Of a DNA stretch of 6,179 nucleotides, positions 880 through 6,179 are shown piece by piece. The number at the start of each line of letters is the position of its first letter. The stretch's first letter is position 1. Position numbers and translations under genes: made by a program. The notes beneath the pieces were generated by a model. The model was given only the letters and a program-made list of their open reading frames with translations. It was not told the origin of the DNA and ran no database searches. This stretch comes from an uncultured bacterium (GTDB lineage: Bacteria; CALINM01): positions 1 through 6,179 of the forward strand of contig CALINM010000160.1 of NCBI GenBank assembly GCA_938045315.1, given 5' to 3'.

Positions 880-2061
880 TTATTTCCATGTCTCCATATT
901 TTTTATAAATTTTGCAAAAACATATCTTGCATCATGTGGTCCTGCAGATGCTTCCGGATGGTATTGCACTGAATATGCTTTTATTTCAGGCACTTCCAGT
1001 CCTTCCACTGTTTTATCATTTAAATTTATATGAGTTATCCTGACATTATATTTTGATTTTTTTAATGAATCAGCATCAACTGCAAACCCATGATTCTGGA
1101 CTGTTATATCTACCTTTTTTGTCTGCAAATCAATAACCGGCTGGTTTGCTCCCCGATGACCGAATTTCATCTTATATGTCTTACCGCCAAGTGCAAGCGC
1201 AAGGAATTGGTGACCAAAACAAATACCAAATATAGGTTTATATCCCAGCAGTTTTTTCAATGTCTCATAAATATACGGTGCTCCTTGTGGATCCCCGGGA
1301 CCATTTGACAGAAATATACCATCAGGGTTTAGTTCTTTTATTCTTTTTTCGTCTGTCCAGGCAGGCACAACTGTGACATTACAATTCAATTCTGCGAATA
1401 TCCTTAATATTTCGTGTTTCATACCGTAATCAAAAGCAACTACTTTGTATTTCTTACGATTAACAAAAATTTTTAAAAATCTGTCTTCATTGGATGAAAT
1501 TTTAAGACGTGGCAGTTTTTTTTCTATATCCCATTTAAATTCCTTTTTTGTTGAAACATATTGAACAAGATCCTTGCCCACTATGGACTCAGAATCTCTT
1601 ACTTTTTTTAACAACGAATTATAATCCAAATCAATTGTTGATAAAACCGCTCTCATTGCACCAAAATCTCTTATATGCTTTGTTAAAGCACGTGTATCTA
1701 TGCCTTCTATGGCAGGTATGTTACTTTTTATAAGGTACGATGTAAGTGCTCCTTTTGCCCTCCAGTTACTCGGGGTCTTACACATTTCTTTGACAACAAA
1801 TCCCTCAACCCACGGCTTTATTGATTCGGTATCTTCTAAGTTAAATCCATAATTACCTATCTCTGGATATGTCATAACTACTATTTGCCCTTTGTAAGAA
1901 GGGTCAGTTAAGACCTCCTGATAACCCATCATAGATGTATTAAAAACAATTTCTCCAAAGCGCTCGCCTTTGGCACCCGCTGATATTCCTTCAAAATATG
2001 TTCCATCTTCCAAAACAAGGATCGCTCTTGAATTTTTTTTAGACGTCCTATCTTTTTTCAT
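880..2061 (-). CDS. carA: Carbamoyl phosphate synthase small (glutaminase) subunit
   Basis: The product is 393 residues, slightly longer than E. coli CarA (about 382), the excess being partly a basic N-terminal extension (MKKDRTSKKNS). CarA hydrolyses glutamine and passes ammonia through a tunnel to CarB. The N-terminal CPSase small-chain domain (about 13-141) carries GEIVFNTSMMGYQEVLTDPS and the QIVVMTYPEIGNYG motif. The C-terminal class I glutamine amidotransferase domain (about 205-388) carries LSNGPGDP, the nucleophile elbow GICFGHQ with Cys281, and YSVQYHPEAS with His368 and Glu370. The Cys-His-Glu triad is therefore intact. The start is supported by AAGGA 7 bases upstream. The stop touches the carB start, so the two form one translational unit. 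A strong stem-loop lies 25 bases before the start. The pairing with CarB excludes related amidotransferases such as TrpG, PabA or GuaA. Confidence 0.97.
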   Translation of the reverse strand: MKKDRTSKKNSRAILVLEDGTYFEGISAGAKGERFGEIVFNTSMMGYQEVLTDPSYKGQIVVMTYPEIGNYGFNLEDTESIKPWVEGFVVKEMCKTPSNWRAKGALTSYLIKSNIPAIEGIDTRALTKHIRDFGAMRAVLSTIDLDYNSLLKKVRDSESIVGKDLVQYVSTKKEFKWDIEKKLPRLKISSNEDRFLKIFVNRKKYKVVAFDYGMKHEILRIFAELNCNVTVVPAWTDEKRIKELNPDGIFLSNGPGDPQGAPYIYETLKKLLGYKPIFGICFGHQFLALALGGKTYKMKFGHRGANQPVIDLQTKKVDITVQNHGFAVDADSLKKSKYNVRITHINLNDKTVEGLEVPEIKAYSVQYHPEASAGPHDARYVFAKFIKNMETWK

Positions 2062-2085
2062 TTATTTTCCTTAATTTAATTAATA

Positions 2086-2114
2086 AATCCCCCGCATTTG
2101 TAATGCAGGGGATT
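2086..2114 (-). terminator. 13-bp stem-loop in the carA leader, terminator- or attenuator-like
   Basis: On the minus-strand RNA the arms AAUCCCCUGCAUU and AAUGCGGGGGAUU pair over 13 bp with a three-base loop (ACA). The only non-Watson-Crick pair is a U-G wobble. On the plus-strand RNA the same position is a C-A mismatch, so the structure fits the minus strand better. The downstream tail (UAUUAAUUAAAUU) is AU-rich but not a clean U run, and the carA ribosome binding site follows closely. It could be a leaky terminator after the glutamate synthase gene, a 5' stabilising stem of carAB mRNA, or an attenuator. No PyrR- or ArgR-type site was recognised. The hairpin is certain as sequence; its role is not. 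Confidence 0.5.
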
Positions 2115-2198
2115 ATTTTACTATACAAAACTTCGTATACTTTAAAATCATTTAATAATAAATGATTTTTTTAATTTTTATTCTTGTTAAAAAATTTA

Positions 2199-2214
2199 TT
2201 TTGTTTTCACAAAA
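2199..2214 (-). terminator. Weak terminator-like hairpin behind the glutamate synthase gene
   Basis: On the minus strand UUUUGU and ACAAAA form a 6-bp stem closed by a GAAA tetraloop (GNRA type). UAAAUUUUUU follows, so a U6 run lies four bases after the stem. It is about 80 bases past the stop at 2296. Only one G-C pair is present, so termination would be inefficient; this could also be chance in AT-rich DNA. Confidence 0.25.
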
Positions 2215-2295
2215 CGAATTATCTGAAGCAATTCTTTGGCCTCTTTACTATTTCATACATGCCGATACAAACTATGCTATTTTCTGTTATTAACT

Positions 2296-3957
2296 TTAAC
2301 CTTTTTTATTTTTTTTTGCTCCTGCTGATTTTTTTTTATTATCTCTCTTTACACTCCATTTACCTTTCAAGACCTCAAGCGCATCTTTCCTGTATGCGTC
2401 CATTACATAAGGTATTTTTGTAACATCCTCACACTCTCTTGTTAAAGACATCAATTCATTTCTTGTTATAGATGCTATATTGAAGCAACGTACACCAGCC
2501 ATTAATTGTTGTAAACCAACCTTTATTTTATCTGCAAAACTGTAAATACCAATAGCGCCCAGAGGTATATTCTTTATCTCTTTTGTGCCGACAAGTTTTT
2601 TCACTGCTTCGTAATTTACAAAAATTTCCTCAACAGTAGTTCCAAATTCACTCACTGTTTTCGGTAGTTTGTTTTCCTTTATCCATTTGTCAATATTTTT
2701 ACCTACCATACCAGGTATCATTAAAGCGCGACCCATACATACTGCTTTCACATAAGGTGCACCAAGCGCGATTGCCTTAAATACACCAGATTCTTCTGAG
2801 AAACCTCCTGCAAATGCAAGGTCAGGAACTTTTTTCCCCTCTTTCCTTAAAATTTCTGCAAATTCATAAGCAGCAGAATGCAGGTATAATGAAGGAACTC
2901 CCCATTCTTCCATCATTCCCCATGGGCTCATTCCGGTTCCACCTGGTGCTCCATCAATTGTTATTAAATCTATCTCTGCATTGGAACCCCATGCAATTGC
3001 CATTGCAAGTTCTCTTAATGAATATGCTCCTGTTTTTAAGGTAATTCTTTTGTATCCTAATTTACGTAATCTTTTTACTTCTGCATAAAAACTTTCCTCG
3101 TCTACAAATCCTAACCTACTGTGTCTTTCAAACTCTTTCAATGCACCATCTTTAAATGCTGCCTGATTTACAGGATCTGAAGGATCCGGCGTCACGATAT
3201 AACCACGGCGTTGTAATTCAAGTGCACGCTCAAGATTTTTTACTTTTATTTCACCACCTATACATTTAGCACCCTGCCCCCATTTAAGTTCAATAGTATC
3301 CAAACCATGTTTATCAATAAGATACTCTGCAACGCCAAAACGCGTATCTTCTACGTTCATCTGAACAAGTATTTCTCCCATTCCACTTACGTCTTTATAC
3401 CTTTTGTATGTATCTATTCTTCTATCCATTTCTGGAGATTTTTTTATTTTCTTATTTGAATCTAATTCAAGACCCGGATCTATTCCGCATACATTCTCAC
3501 CACAAACAATTGTAATTCCTGTAATTGCAGCTCCAACAGCAAAATGTTCCCAGTTTACCCTTGCAATTTCAGTTGAACCAAGTGCTCCTGTAAAAATCGG
3601 CAATGCCATTTTTCTTTTTATCTTCCAGCCATACTCCGTCTGTGTGTTTACATTTGGAAATCTTGCATTATCAGGATTGCCTTCCATTCCCTGTGGCAAT
3701 CCTACTGCACCCAGCGCATAACCCTGAATATTTAAATGTGAGTAATCAACAGGGTAATTTTTATCAGCTCCCGCAGTAACTTCTCCAAATGGTCCTGGAT
3801 AAATAAGTTCTCTGCCTCTAAAAGTCGCTTTAAAAATTTCACAATTTCCTGTGCATCCATCAATACATCTTGAACAGATCCCACTCATTGGAACAACGCT
3901 TTTTGATCTGTTAAATGTTCTTGTTGCATCATTTGCATTCGGTTGTCTTAAATTCAT
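2296..3957 (-). CDS. Stand-alone FMN-binding glutamate synthase domain (GltB domain-2 type) with N-terminal Cys motif
   Basis: The 553-residue product matches the central, FMN-binding synthase domain of GltB (COG0069 type). That domain converts 2-oxoglutarate plus ammonia to glutamate using reduced FMN. Recognisable blocks are IELKWGQGAKCIGGEIK (223-239), ITLKTGAYSLRELAMA (305-320), IDGAPGGTGMSPWG (334-347), and the phosphate-binding stretch AFAGGFSEESGVFKAIALGA (381-400) followed by CMGRALMIPG. No N-terminal glutaminase domain and no C-terminal GXGXG domain are fused. The canonical CX5CX4C 3Fe-4S motif expected after the FMN site is absent. Instead residues 28-39 hold CX2CX3CX3C (ICSRCIDGCTGNC), a plausible iron-sulfur site. 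The tail is Lys-rich. The start has a strong AAAGGAGG six bases upstream. The upstream gltD is a natural electron donor. A related activity such as the MgsC-like N-methylglutamate synthase subunit is possible, but no MgsA/MgsB partner is seen. Confidence 0.85.
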   Translation of the reverse strand: MNLRQPNANDATRTFNRSKSVVPMSGICSRCIDGCTGNCEIFKATFRGRELIYPGPFGEVTAGADKNYPVDYSHLNIQGYALGAVGLPQGMEGNPDNARFPNVNTQTEYGWKIKRKMALPIFTGALGSTEIARVNWEHFAVGAAITGITIVCGENVCGIDPGLELDSNKKIKKSPEMDRRIDTYKRYKDVSGMGEILVQMNVEDTRFGVAEYLIDKHGLDTIELKWGQGAKCIGGEIKVKNLERALELQRRGYIVTPDPSDPVNQAAFKDGALKEFERHSRLGFVDEESFYAEVKRLRKLGYKRITLKTGAYSLRELAMAIAWGSNAEIDLITIDGAPGGTGMSPWGMMEEWGVPSLYLHSAAYEFAEILRKEGKKVPDLAFAGGFSEESGVFKAIALGAPYVKAVCMGRALMIPGMVGKNIDKWIKENKLPKTVSEFGTTVEEIFVNYEAVKKLVGTKEIKNIPLGAIGIYSFADKIKVGLQQLMAGVRCFNIASITRNELMSLTRECEDVTKIPYVMDAYRKDALEVLKGKWSVKRDNKKKSAGAKKNKKG

Positions 3958-3963
3958 CCTTCT

Positions 3964-3971
3964 CCTCCTTT
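3964..3971 (-). promoter_or_regulatory. Strong Shine-Dalgarno site of the glutamate synthase gene
   Basis: The minus strand reads AAAGGAGG six bases before the ATG at 3957, the best ribosome binding site in the window, and fixes that start. It lies about 20 bases downstream of the second ANTAR-target hairpin, so it is within reach of RNA rearrangements there. Confidence 0.8.
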
Positions 3972-3991
3972 AAAATAATTTTGTTTTTTTT

Positions 3992-4013
3992 CCCGGAACA
4001 CCATTGCACCGGA
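3992..4013 (-). promoter_or_regulatory. ANTAR-target hairpin 2 (hexaloop AAUGGU)
   Basis: On the minus-strand RNA the arms UCCGGUGC and GUUCCGGG pair, with an outer U-G wobble, four G-C/C-G pairs of CCGG, a U-U mismatch, a G-U wobble and a closing C-G. They enclose the six-base loop AAUGGU. Loop position 1 is A (4005) and position 4 is G (4002), the two bases that ANTAR proteins require in known targets. The CCGGUG...C stem matches hairpin 1 closely. It is followed by eight A residues and then the leader of the glutamate synthase gene; no U-run terminator follows. Confidence 0.78.
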
Positions 4014-4026
4014 CTTGAAGATTTTT

Positions 4027-5280
4027 TTATTTACCGGAAACATCTTTGCCACCGGATTTTTTTTTATTAATTTCCATGGTTAAAATTATTGCCTCTGCTA
4101 TTTCTTTTAATGGCTTGCATAAATCCATAGCTTTTTTTCTCATTGTGGTATATGCTTCCTCTTCTGTCATATTATTAAATTTCATCAGTATGCCTTTGGC
4201 CCGCTCAATTATTTTTCTTGTTTCTAGTGCATCTTTTACTTTTATTGTTTCTTCTTCCAGTTTTGCATTTCCTATAGCAACAGCTGCAAGGTTTGCAACA
4301 GAAGTAAGCATTTTTATTTCGTCCTCAGTAAATATGTGTTCTGTTACCGTATAAACATTTATTACACCAGTTGTTTTTGTTTTATATATCATTGGCACGG
4401 CAAGCATTGATTTTAGACCTTCCCTTCTTGCAATCTCAGGATATTTGTAACTTGGCTCTTTTGTAACATCAATAGCGCTTATAGGCCTTTTCTCTTTTAC
4501 TGCCCTACCACTTAATGACTGTCCTATCTTTAAATTTGGTTTGTTTCTGTATTCATTGCTCAATGACTGTGTTGCTTTTATTATAAGTTCCTGTTTTTCT
4601 TCGTCATAAAGCATCACAGAACATATTTTATATTCCATAACCTCAGCGATCAAATGAACAATAATTTTTAAAATTTCATCTACATTTTTTTCTGTAGCCA
4701 TCATTTGTGTAATATTTATTAATGTTTCTATCTGTTTTTTTATCTTTTCTTTTTCAAAAGCCTGCCTTGTATTGGAAAACGAAGGCGCAAGCAATGAAGA
4801 CACGGCAAAAACAAGATTGGCTTGTTGTTCATTATATGCTTTGTTTTCTGTCCCTGCAATCATAACACCTACAAGTTCCCCAACATTAATAATTGGAGAC
4901 ACAATATAAAAAATATTACTACTGAGTTGTAGTTTCTTAAGCAAAGTGAATAATTCTTCGTTTTTGTTTGATAAAGGTTTTTTTATTTTCAAAATCTCCT
5001 GTTTTTCATTAATATCCAATACTATTTCTTGTGGGATTGTGATTTTTCTATCAGATACCTTTTTTATAAGACACTTGAGTAAATTATCTTCTAAAATATA
5101 AACAACAAATATGGAACATTTAAATTCTTTTACTATTAATTCTAATGAATTTGTCAGAATATCTGTTACTGAACTTCCTAATGCTATTAAGTTAATAATA
5201 CTAGTAAGTATTTTATTTTCTTGCTTTATAATATTTTCTTTTATCTTTTTTGTAGTTTCTTTTCTAAATTTGGGTTTCAT
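4027..5280 (-). CDS. GAF-GAF-ANTAR RNA-binding antitermination-type regulator
   Basis: The 417-residue cytoplasmic protein has three parts. A divergent first GAF-like domain spans about 30-165. A clear second GAF domain spans about 188-340, with GQSLSGRAVKEKRPI, EGLKSMLAVPMI and HIFTEDEIKMLTSVANLAAVAI. A C-terminal ANTAR domain spans about 347-402. The ANTAR hallmarks are present: ALETRKIIERAKGILM (351-366), then MTEEEAY, and the helix with R381, A384, M385 and L391. A Lys-rich tail (NKKKSGGKDVSGK) follows. ANTAR proteins such as AmiR, NasR and EutV bind paired hexaloop RNA hairpins and prevent termination. This one has no receiver domain or transmembrane segment, so it probably senses a small molecule or partner through GAF. 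Its likely RNA target overlaps its own 3' end and precedes the glutamate synthase gene. The start has only a modest GGGG ribosome binding site. A promoter lies about 155 bases upstream. The ligand is unknown. Confidence 0.9.
   Translation of the reverse strand: MKPKFRKETTKKIKENIIKQENKILTSIINLIALGSSVTDILTNSLELIVKEFKCSIFVVYILEDNLLKCLIKKVSDRKITIPQEIVLDINEKQEILKIKKPLSNKNEELFTLLKKLQLSSNIFYIVSPIINVGELVGVMIAGTENKAYNEQQANLVFAVSSLLAPSFSNTRQAFEKEKIKKQIETLINITQMMATEKNVDEILKIIVHLIAEVMEYKICSVMLYDEEKQELIIKATQSLSNEYRNKPNLKIGQSLSGRAVKEKRPISAIDVTKEPSYKYPEIARREGLKSMLAVPMIYKTKTTGVINVYTVTEHIFTEDEIKMLTSVANLAAVAIGNAKLEEETIKVKDALETRKIIERAKGILMKFNNMTEEEAYTTMRKKAMDLCKPLKEIAEAIILTMEINKKKSGGKDVSGK
4034..4055 (-). promoter_or_regulatory. 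ANTAR-target hairpin 1 (hexaloop AAAGAU), inside the regulator gene
   Basis: On the minus-strand RNA the arms CCGGUGGC and GUUUCCGG pair through CCGG/CCGG, a U-U mismatch, two G-U wobbles and a closing C-G, around the six-base loop AAAGAU. Loop A1 is at 4047 and G4 at 4044. The hairpin is encoded within codons 409-416 of the ANTAR gene, ending four bases before its stop codon. A 20-base AU-rich linker (4033-4014), which contains the UAA stop, separates it from hairpin 2. Two similar A1/G4 hexaloop hairpins in tandem next to an ANTAR gene are very unlikely to be chance. Confidence 0.78.
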
Positions 5281-5376
5281 TCTTTAACCCCATTTCTTAC
5301 AAACAAAAAATCTTTAAAATAAAATAATATTTTTGTATTTTTGCTAACATTTACTATTTTTAATTTAAAAAAGCAT

Positions 5377-5394
5377 AAAAAAACCACTTGGTTT
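5377..5394 (-). terminator. Terminator-like hairpin in the ANTAR gene leader
   Basis: On the minus strand AAACC, loop AAGU and GGUUU form a 5-bp stem that runs straight into further U residues (seven U in all, then AUGC and another U6). It sits about 40 bases after the predicted transcription start and about 100 before the ATG, as an attenuator would. With only two G-C pairs it is weak and may be chance. Confidence 0.25.
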
Positions 5395-5401
5395 AAATTT
5401 C

Positions 5402-5432
5402 ATTTAACAATAGTATTCAAGCATTATTAAAT
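5402..5432 (-). other. AU-rich stem-loop at the 5' end of the ANTAR mRNA leader
   Basis: The arms AUUUAAUAAU and AUUGUUAAAU pair over 10 bp with one U-G wobble around an 11-base loop (GCUUGAAUACU). It would form at the very 5' end of a transcript from the promoter at 5441-5468. It contains no G-C pairs, so it is weak. The loop is not an ANTAR-type hexaloop. Confidence 0.25.
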
Positions 5433-5440
5433 TTTAAAAA

Positions 5441-5468
5441 ATTATATATTATTCAAATCAAAAGTCAA
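5441..5468 (-). promoter_or_regulatory. Sigma-70-type promoter for the ANTAR gene
   Basis: The minus strand carries TTGACT (5468-5463; five of six bases of the -35 consensus) and TATAAT (5446-5441; perfect -10), separated by 16 bp. Transcription would begin near 5434 and give a leader of about 154 bases before the ATG at 5280. T/A-tracts directly upstream could act as an UP element. It is the best promoter in the window, and it suggests that the ANTAR gene, the glutamate synthase gene and possibly carAB are transcribed separately from gltD. Confidence 0.7.
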
Positions 5469-5514
5469 GTTTTTCCATAAAAAACGCATTAGCAATAGTT
5501 TTTTACGAAAAAAC
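5469..5514 (-). repeat. Two tandem 17-base A-tract palindromes upstream of the -35 box
   Basis: On the minus strand the elements are GTTTTTTCGTAAAAAAC (5514-5498) and GTTTTTTATGGAAAAAC (5485-5469). Each is an inverted repeat with 7-bp or 6-bp arms. They share GTTTTTT at the left and AAAAAC at the right, and are separated by 12 bases (29 bp centre to centre). The second directly abuts the -35 hexamer. They may be operator sites, an UP element or bent A-tract DNA. Low complexity makes chance possible. Confidence 0.4.
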
Positions 5515-5594
5515 AAACTGTTTTCATTATTTTTATTTAACAAATTTTCATTTTTATAATGCATTATTTTATTAATCTGTTTTTTTATTTTAAA

Positions 5595-5615
5595 TAAAAC
5601 AAAAGTTTTGTTTTA
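5595..5615 (-). terminator. A/T palindrome, possible gltD terminator
   Basis: Perfect 10-bp inverted repeat with a single central base. On the minus-strand RNA it folds as UAAAACAA, loop AACUU, UUGUUUUA, followed by UUUAAAAU. It is about 60 bases past the gltD stop and before the next promoter, where a terminator is expected. The stem contains almost only A-U pairs, so efficiency is doubtful. Confidence 0.35.
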
Positions 5616-5643
5616 GATATTTTATTTCTTTAATAATATCTCT

Positions 5644-5678
5644 CCTGAAAATCGTAATTTTCTATCTTGATTTTCAGG
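5644..5678 (-). terminator. 10-bp stem-loop overlapping the gltD stop codon
   Basis: On the minus strand CCUGAAAAUC (5678-5669, containing the gltD UGA stop) pairs perfectly with GAUUUUCAGG (5653-5644) across a 15-base loop. No U run follows (GAGAGAUAUU), so it is not a standard intrinsic terminator. It may stabilise the 3' end of gltD mRNA or act together with the next palindrome. Confidence 0.4.
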
Positions 5679-6179
5679 TTATTAAAAACTCATTTACTTT
5701 AACTGCCGCGTTTCTTCCTTCCGAAATTGCCCACACCACAAGAGAAGGGCCTCTTCCTGCATCGCCTGCTATAAAAACCTTTTCATTTGTCGTTCTGTAA
5801 TTATTATCTCTCTGGATATTGCCGCGCGCGTCTGTTTTTAATCCGTATTTTTCCATGAGTGCGTTTTTCTCAACTCCTGCAAATCCCATAGATAAAATCA
5901 CCATATCAGCGTTTATTTCAAAATCAGTCCCGGGGATTTCTTTGAATTGCGGTGCTGGATTTTTTATAAATTCACATCTTGCACATTTTATTTTTGATAT
6001 TTTTCCGTCTTTACCAATAAATTCTTTTGTTATAATTGACCACTTTCTTTCTACTTTTCCTTCTTCATGACTTGATGAAACTTTAAACACAAAAGGATAA
6101 TAAGGCCATGGTTGATTAAGAGGTCGGTTTTTGGGCGGTTCCGGCATTATCTCTATCTGCACAACACATTTTGCTTTCT
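5674..6179 (-). CDS. gltD: Glutamate synthase small subunit, C-terminal part (runs off right edge)
   Basis: The last 167 complete codons are present, and the frame stays open to the right edge, where it reads KAKCVVQIEIMPEPP. An internal GTG at 6162 is not the start. GltD takes electrons from NAD(P)H through FAD and passes them to the large-subunit FMN; full-length proteins are usually 450-490 residues. Family landmarks visible are QPWPYYPF, the VSSSHEEG motif, TKEFIG, the NAD(P)/FAD-fold strand ADMVILSMGFAG, and the FAD-contacting FIAGDAGRGPSLVVWAISEG near the C-terminus, with GDAGRG at visible residues 138-143. The N-terminal iron-sulfur cysteines lie outside the window. The synthase domain it would serve is not adjacent: it lies about 1.7 kb downstream beyond the ANTAR gene. 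Related GltD-like oxidoreductases (NfnB, PreT type) are less likely because the SSSHEEG region is glutamate-synthase-like. Confidence 0.9.
   Translation of the reverse strand, partial: KAKCVVQIEIMPEPPKNRPLNQPWPYYPFVFKVSSSHEEGKVERKWSIITKEFIGKDGKISKIKCARCEFIKNPAPQFKEIPGTDFEINADMVILSMGFAGVEKNALMEKYGLKTDARGNIQRDNNYRTTNEKVFIAGDAGRGPSLVVWAISEGRNAAVKVNEFLIT

Follow-up and report, generated by a model that had tools for sequence, protein, structure and literature searches.

The contig CALINM010000160.1 (assembly GCA_938045315.1) of an uncultured bacterium is 6,179 nucleotides (nt) long and was analysed in its entirety, so that the window referred to here is the whole contig. On its minus strand, where the gene for a GAF-ANTAR regulator meets the gene for a GltB-like glutamate synthase (gltB), there are two hairpins, P1 and P2, which form a real pair and not one due to chance. 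They are best explained as the target RNA of an ANTAR protein that would control gltB post-transcriptionally, probably at translation, an explanation to which we give a probability of about 0.6. It is suggested by the non-random occurrence of two hexaloops with A at position 1 and G at position 4 (A1/G4), both closed by a C-G pair, by the presence of an ANTAR protein encoded in cis, by the enrichment of the motif in related loci and by the layout of one of these, locus L162.

Structure and rarity of the hairpin pair

P1 (CCGGUGGC-AAAGAU-GUUUCCGG; 4034..4055, minus strand) is situated within the last codons of the ANTAR open reading frame (ORF), where the protein ends in SGGKDVSGK, and P2 (CCGGUGC-AAUGGU-GUUCCGG; 3992..4013, core 4012-3993, minus strand) lies beyond it. 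Both hexaloops, AAAGAU and AAUGGU, have A1, G4 and a closing C-G pair, and the two stems share a U.U mismatch above CCGG/CCGG. An earlier note on this DNA had described the hairpins in these terms and the description is borne out by the sequence, pair probabilities and shuffles. Five of the 7 pairs in each stem are G-C, P2 being scored with the U4013.G3992 pair that is able to lengthen its stem. Pair probabilities in the RNA ensemble are 0.74-0.92 for P1, except at the mismatch, and 0.95-0.99 for P2. Compared with shuffles each single hairpin has a fold z of about -2.6 (-2.64 for P1), and the 136-nt region as a whole is as stable as its shuffles (z -0.11). The hairpins fold better on the minus strand (-8.1 and -9.1 kcal/mol) than on the plus strand (-4.7 and -6.0 kcal/mol) because G.U pairs turn into A.C mismatches on the latter. 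A terminator on the plus strand, where T-runs are found 3' of the hairpins, was considered and ruled out, the stems being weaker on that strand and the main genes all lying on the minus strand.

In both loops pairing of A1 with U6 is thermodynamically possible and in the predicted minimum structure lengthens the stem, leaving a tetraloop; P1 and P2 are read as hexaloops because of the precedent of ANTAR RNAs and not because of the minimum predicted structure. In its structure the element fits the broad sense of an ANTAR dual-hexaloop RNA (two stem-loops of at least 3 base pairs with hexaloops carrying A1 and G4). A scan of the window against Rfam returned nothing at the gathering score, all of the listed matches falling below it.

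The rarity of the pair was assessed with shuffles that preserve dinucleotides, searching both strands for two A1/G4 hairpins, each closed by C-G, that lie no more than 30 nt apart. One such dual hairpin is present in the real window. Of 400 shuffled windows 1 had a match at the loosest criterion and none when stems as good as those observed were required; shuffling the local 120 nt 20,000 times gave none. The motif had been named beforehand from the literature, so that this was not a free search, with the caveat that the stems of P1 and P2 are alike and perhaps not independent.

The hairpins are separated by a linker (4013..4033, minus strand; from the sequence and pair probabilities) of 21 nt, or 20 nt if the U.G pair is counted, the latter being the spacing noted previously. 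The linker contains the ANTAR stop codon (4029-4027), which starts 4 nt beyond P1, and the motif UCUUC (4021-4017), for which pairing with the region of the gltB Shine-Dalgarno sequence is predicted with a probability of about 0.75. This Shine-Dalgarno sequence, AAGGAGG (3964..3970, minus strand), was recognised from the sequence 22 nt 3' of P2. No terminator-like site and no T-run were found between P2 and gltB in the window.

The GAF-ANTAR protein

The regulator (417 amino acids; 4027..5280, minus strand) had been taken for a GAF-GAF-ANTAR protein. Its ANTAR domain is secure (Pfam PF03861, 72 bits against a cut-off of 27.3); only one GAF domain is seen by Pfam (84.6 bits, residues 198-336), which finds no second GAF and leaves the N-terminal part of the protein unrecognised. 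The protein also matches NCBIfam PRK11061 (76 bits) and, in the PDB, NasR, Rv1626 and EutV, the best match of the ANTAR domain being NasR (4akk). The closest relative of the GAF domain is that of EI-Ntr (PtsP), which has been reported to bind glutamine (PMC4848567). When the RNA-contact residues of EutV listed in PMC8934654 were mapped onto the protein by alignment, 8/11 positions were found to be kept (R142, K143, K147 as R, K149, E160, Y164, R168 and M172) and the other three to differ. RNA binding by this protein is plausible.

Related gltB loci in the Omnitrophota

The gene downstream of the element (2296..3957, minus strand) encodes a glutamate-synthase-type protein, as the earlier note had it, with the flavin mononucleotide/synthase domain PF01645. 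By sequence similarity this GltB is of Omnitrophota type, being 70-76% identical to the GltB of about 50 Omnitrophota genomes and 80% identical over a fragment in one. In all, 73 Omnitrophota gltB loci were examined, with the leader taken as the 300 nt before gltB. An ANTAR gene on the same strand ends within 100 nt upstream of gltB in 17/73 loci and within 500 nt in 23/73.

In the gltB leaders 41 A1/G4 hexaloop hairpins were counted, an enrichment of about 4.5-fold over the 9.0 +/- 2.9 of their shuffles (100 sets, with at most 17 in any one); as further controls, the antisense strand has 7 and coding sequence 11. Dual A1/G4 hairpins occur in 12/163 leader regions and nine other choices of loop letters give 0 or 1. 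Such loop-letter controls were preferred to a covariance model because hairpins selected for pairing make counts of pairs circular, and because the linkers range from 0 to 30 nt. Many of the hairpins in the relatives precede a T-run or an intrinsic terminator, like known ANTAR antiterminators. Because A1/G4 hexaloops are enriched in the leaders, ANTAR control of gltB looks widespread in the Omnitrophota. ANTAR proteins are also encoded in 70/80 genomes of GltB-bearing Omnitrophota and in 45/80 without GltB (80 + 80 genomes; Fisher p = 1.7e-5, kinship ignored). An Rfam scan of ten related loci gave no match.

Elsewhere the same ANTAR subfamily adjoins genes for NAD synthase, P-II, glutamine synthetase, an ammonium transporter, GlmS, glutamate dehydrogenase and CarAB. 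One nitrogen cluster, locus L036 (G069:C39), encodes the GltB C-terminus, GltD and a GAF-ANTAR protein, followed by a leader with dual hexaloops and a terminator and then by NAD synthase, P-II and glutamine synthetase.

At least one A1/G4 hairpin lies between the ANTAR gene and gltB in 10 of the 23 loci; other letter pairs are found there in 1-3 and T1/G4 in 7. Among the ANTAR-adjacent relatives L162 alone has the terminator-free layout of ANTAR gene, two A1/G4 hairpins and gltB, with seven-base loops, a 20-nt linker and no T-run, the hairpins being positioned after the ANTAR stop codon. Many other orthologues have instead a classic ANTAR leader 5' of the ANTAR gene, in which P1 has a seven-base loop, mostly ANNGUUN, and in several of which a hexaloop P2 and then a terminator follow. 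Seven-base-loop hairpins were found 5' of the ANTAR gene in L161, L162, L163, L165, L167, L168, L171, L173, L180, L207 and L212; the seven-base-loop hairpins are closed by C-G, and A1/G4 is present in 16, whereas no other letter pair is found in more than 4. Thus the motif class is kept in gltB leaders and ANTAR control, as predicted from such leaders, is common in these relatives, but its location within the operon shifts, and conservation of the exact element of the window appears weak.

Two further structures were seen just before gltB in other relatives. In L155, L157, L163, L166, L168, L169 and L172 the gap between the ANTAR gene and gltB holds a different conserved RNA just before the gltB Shine-Dalgarno sequence, apparently a three-way junction, with an outer stem UGCUCAU/AUGAGCA around AGGC..GCCU and UUAAUCC..GGAUUAA hairpins. 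Its sequences were aligned by hand; the outer stem shows some two-sided changes (L163, L172) and no Rfam match was obtained in L155, L157 and L163, those that were scanned. In L159, L174 and L180, which have a 2-nt gene gap, a hairpin of the form GCC-AAAGGA-GGC or CCC-AAAGGA-GGG has the Shine-Dalgarno sequence within its A1/G4 hexaloop; among these few, closely related sequences there is one two-sided change.

Mode of action and alternative explanations

In the proposed mechanism P1 and P2 would form, within the operon mRNA, a target for the ANTAR protein, and a dimer of the neighbouring GAF-ANTAR protein would bind the two A1/G4 hexaloops. The protein may be switched by a ligand that reports nitrogen status, glutamine being the likeliest guess in view of the kinship of the GAF domain with the one in EI-Ntr. 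Binding would then alter the expression of the downstream gltB, presumably at translation. A candidate route is that the linker UCUUC, in its predicted pairing with the gltB ribosome-binding site, could be freed or fixed by occupancy of P1 and P2. Ribosomes completing the ANTAR gene would be expected to open P1, which reaches into the final codons of its reading frame. Post-transcriptional control is favoured because there is no intrinsic terminator after P2 and because the linker is too long for known antitermination geometry. The linkers of the Enterococcus faecalis eut RNAs are 5-12 nt, a 14-nt linker already disables eutP in vivo (PMC3369931) and a 20-nt linker extension abolishes antitermination in vitro (PMC8934654).

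Several observations weigh against control of gltB by P1 and P2. Most orthologues with an ANTAR gene directly 5' of gltB do not have the dual hairpin at this spot, which comes close to the finding (proteins kept, hairpins lost) that the earlier note had named as fatal to its proposal of a self-contained nitrogen switch; of that proposal the identities of protein and gene and the A1/G4 enrichment before related gltB genes stand, but the RNA is not a standard antiterminator and its exact form is mostly not conserved. The linker is longer than the lengths that work for EutV. Neither hairpin sequesters the Shine-Dalgarno sequence or the start codon in the manner of the actinobacterial ANTAR RNAs that overlap the ribosome-binding site; the former has its predicted pairing partner in the linker alone, in a helix of about 5 pairs. 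P2 ends 22 nt ahead of the Shine-Dalgarno sequence and a bound protein would therefore not cover it directly. Finally, the contact loop after Met172 is weakened in the window protein (N173 to D, R175 to C, R177 to P), and in EutV a triple alanine change at these three residues abolished binding (PMC8934654). D and P are found at the N173 and R177 positions in other ANTAR proteins; at the R175 position C is also present in the relative L036 and R in most of the subfamily.

A more elaborate and tentative proposal is that of a translation-coupled switch, in which binding of the protein, the passage of ribosomes along the regulator gene and translation of gltB would compete on one 64-nt terminator-free RNA. 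It draws on the placement of the first hexaloop in the ORF of the regulator and of the regulator stop codon and the anti-Shine-Dalgarno motif in the long linker, and we regard it as possible but doubtful.

To a similarly limited extent P1 and P2 might be a plain structure for mRNA stability or processing between two operon genes, the A1/G4 loops being coincidental. The location between two cistrons would suit such a structure, as would the lack of conservation of the site in most orthologues, and the CCGGUG of both stems may reflect a local duplication, in which case the loops are less independent than the shuffles assume. Against it stand the shuffle test, the presence of an ANTAR gene in cis and, in relatives, the specificity for the A1/G4 loop letters. 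It is rather less probable that the main target of the element is the ANTAR gene itself, in which case binding, or a ribosome terminating at the linker stop codon, would feed back on both the regulator and gltB. The overlap of P1 with the codons for the last ANTAR residues and the proximity of the stop codon are consistent with feedback, and in relatives ANTAR leaders control the ANTAR gene itself; the evidence is positional, and in L162 the hairpins come after the ANTAR stop codon. Classic ANTAR antitermination, in which bound protein would stop P2 from joining an intrinsic terminator 5' of gltB, is the rule in relatives (before gltB in L176, L185, L198 and L211, before carA in L044, upstream of the ANTAR gene in L161, L167 and L171 and downstream of it in L036) but is very improbable in the window, where the terminator is missing and the 21-nt linker exceeds the 14 nt that already disable eutP.

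Genomic context and binning of the contig

On the minus strand the main genes of the window are ordered gltD (C-terminal part), GAF-ANTAR gene, GltB-like gene, carA and carB. The C-terminal part of GltD, the glutamate synthase small subunit (5674..6177, minus strand), lies 5' of the ANTAR gene and is cut by the contig end; carA (880..2061, minus strand) is followed by a partial carB (1-879). A promoter-like TTGACT-16-TATAAT (5441..5468, minus strand) 5' of the ANTAR gene is a consensus match only, the total of such sites being at chance level. A hairpin between gltB and carA (2086..2114, minus strand) is the sole terminator-like site found in 2050-5720.

Both the GltB-like gene and carA have a further copy in the same bin; these further copies are about 53-55% identical to those of the window and resemble copies in genus and family relatives in their similarity to the window; the window GltB is 52-53% identical to the other copy of the bin and to those of the relatives. 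In tetranucleotide profile the window shows correlations of 0.46-0.68 with other contigs of the bin, compared with about 0.7-0.9 among those contigs and relatives themselves. These duplicates and the outlying profile make it probable that the contig is foreign to this bin, either mis-binned or recently acquired. ANTAR was absent from both relatives of the bin that were searched, which, given the foreign look of the contig, is discounted as counter-evidence. One further match to the hairpin pattern in the bin lies inside a 351-codon ORF.

Relation to known ANTAR systems

The link between ANTAR and glutamate synthase is already known and is not new, as it was described for Desulfotomaculum reducens, where ANTAR dual-hairpin RNAs were associated with glutamate synthase genes (Ramesh et al. 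2012, PMC3369931). That system shares with the window a pair of A1/G4 hexaloops tied to a glutamate synthase gene and a nitrogen theme; it differs in being a covariance prediction under an antitermination model, whereas the window copy belongs to another, uncultured lineage, is terminator-free and has a linker of 21 nt. EutV and eutP of E. faecalis (PMC3369931, PMC8934654) likewise combine two A1/G4 hexaloop stem-loops with an ANTAR effector, most of whose RNA-contact residues, though not those of the loop after Met172, are retained in the window protein. In eutP, however, a terminator overlaps P2 and the linker is short, and EutV has a phospho-receiver domain in place of GAF. NasR and AmiR are also ANTAR effectors that govern nitrogen genes via A1/G4 hexaloops, but they have other sensor domains and both work by antitermination. 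Terminator-free ANTAR RNAs acting at translation have been reported in actinobacteria, including mycobacteria (PMC8164766), and resemble the window element in lacking a terminator and in the translational action proposed; they differ from it in that P2 of the window stops 22 nt short of the Shine-Dalgarno sequence.

No paper joining the Omnitrophota with ANTAR was found in the literature searched, and what is new here is the phylum-level pattern in the Omnitrophota and the terminator-free variant. ANTAR control of glutamate synthase would thereby be extended to uncultured bacteria. EutV binds single hexaloops (PMC8934654). The element may also provide a compact, terminator-free case in which the idea that one hexaloop suffices for ANTAR binding could be tested outside antitermination.
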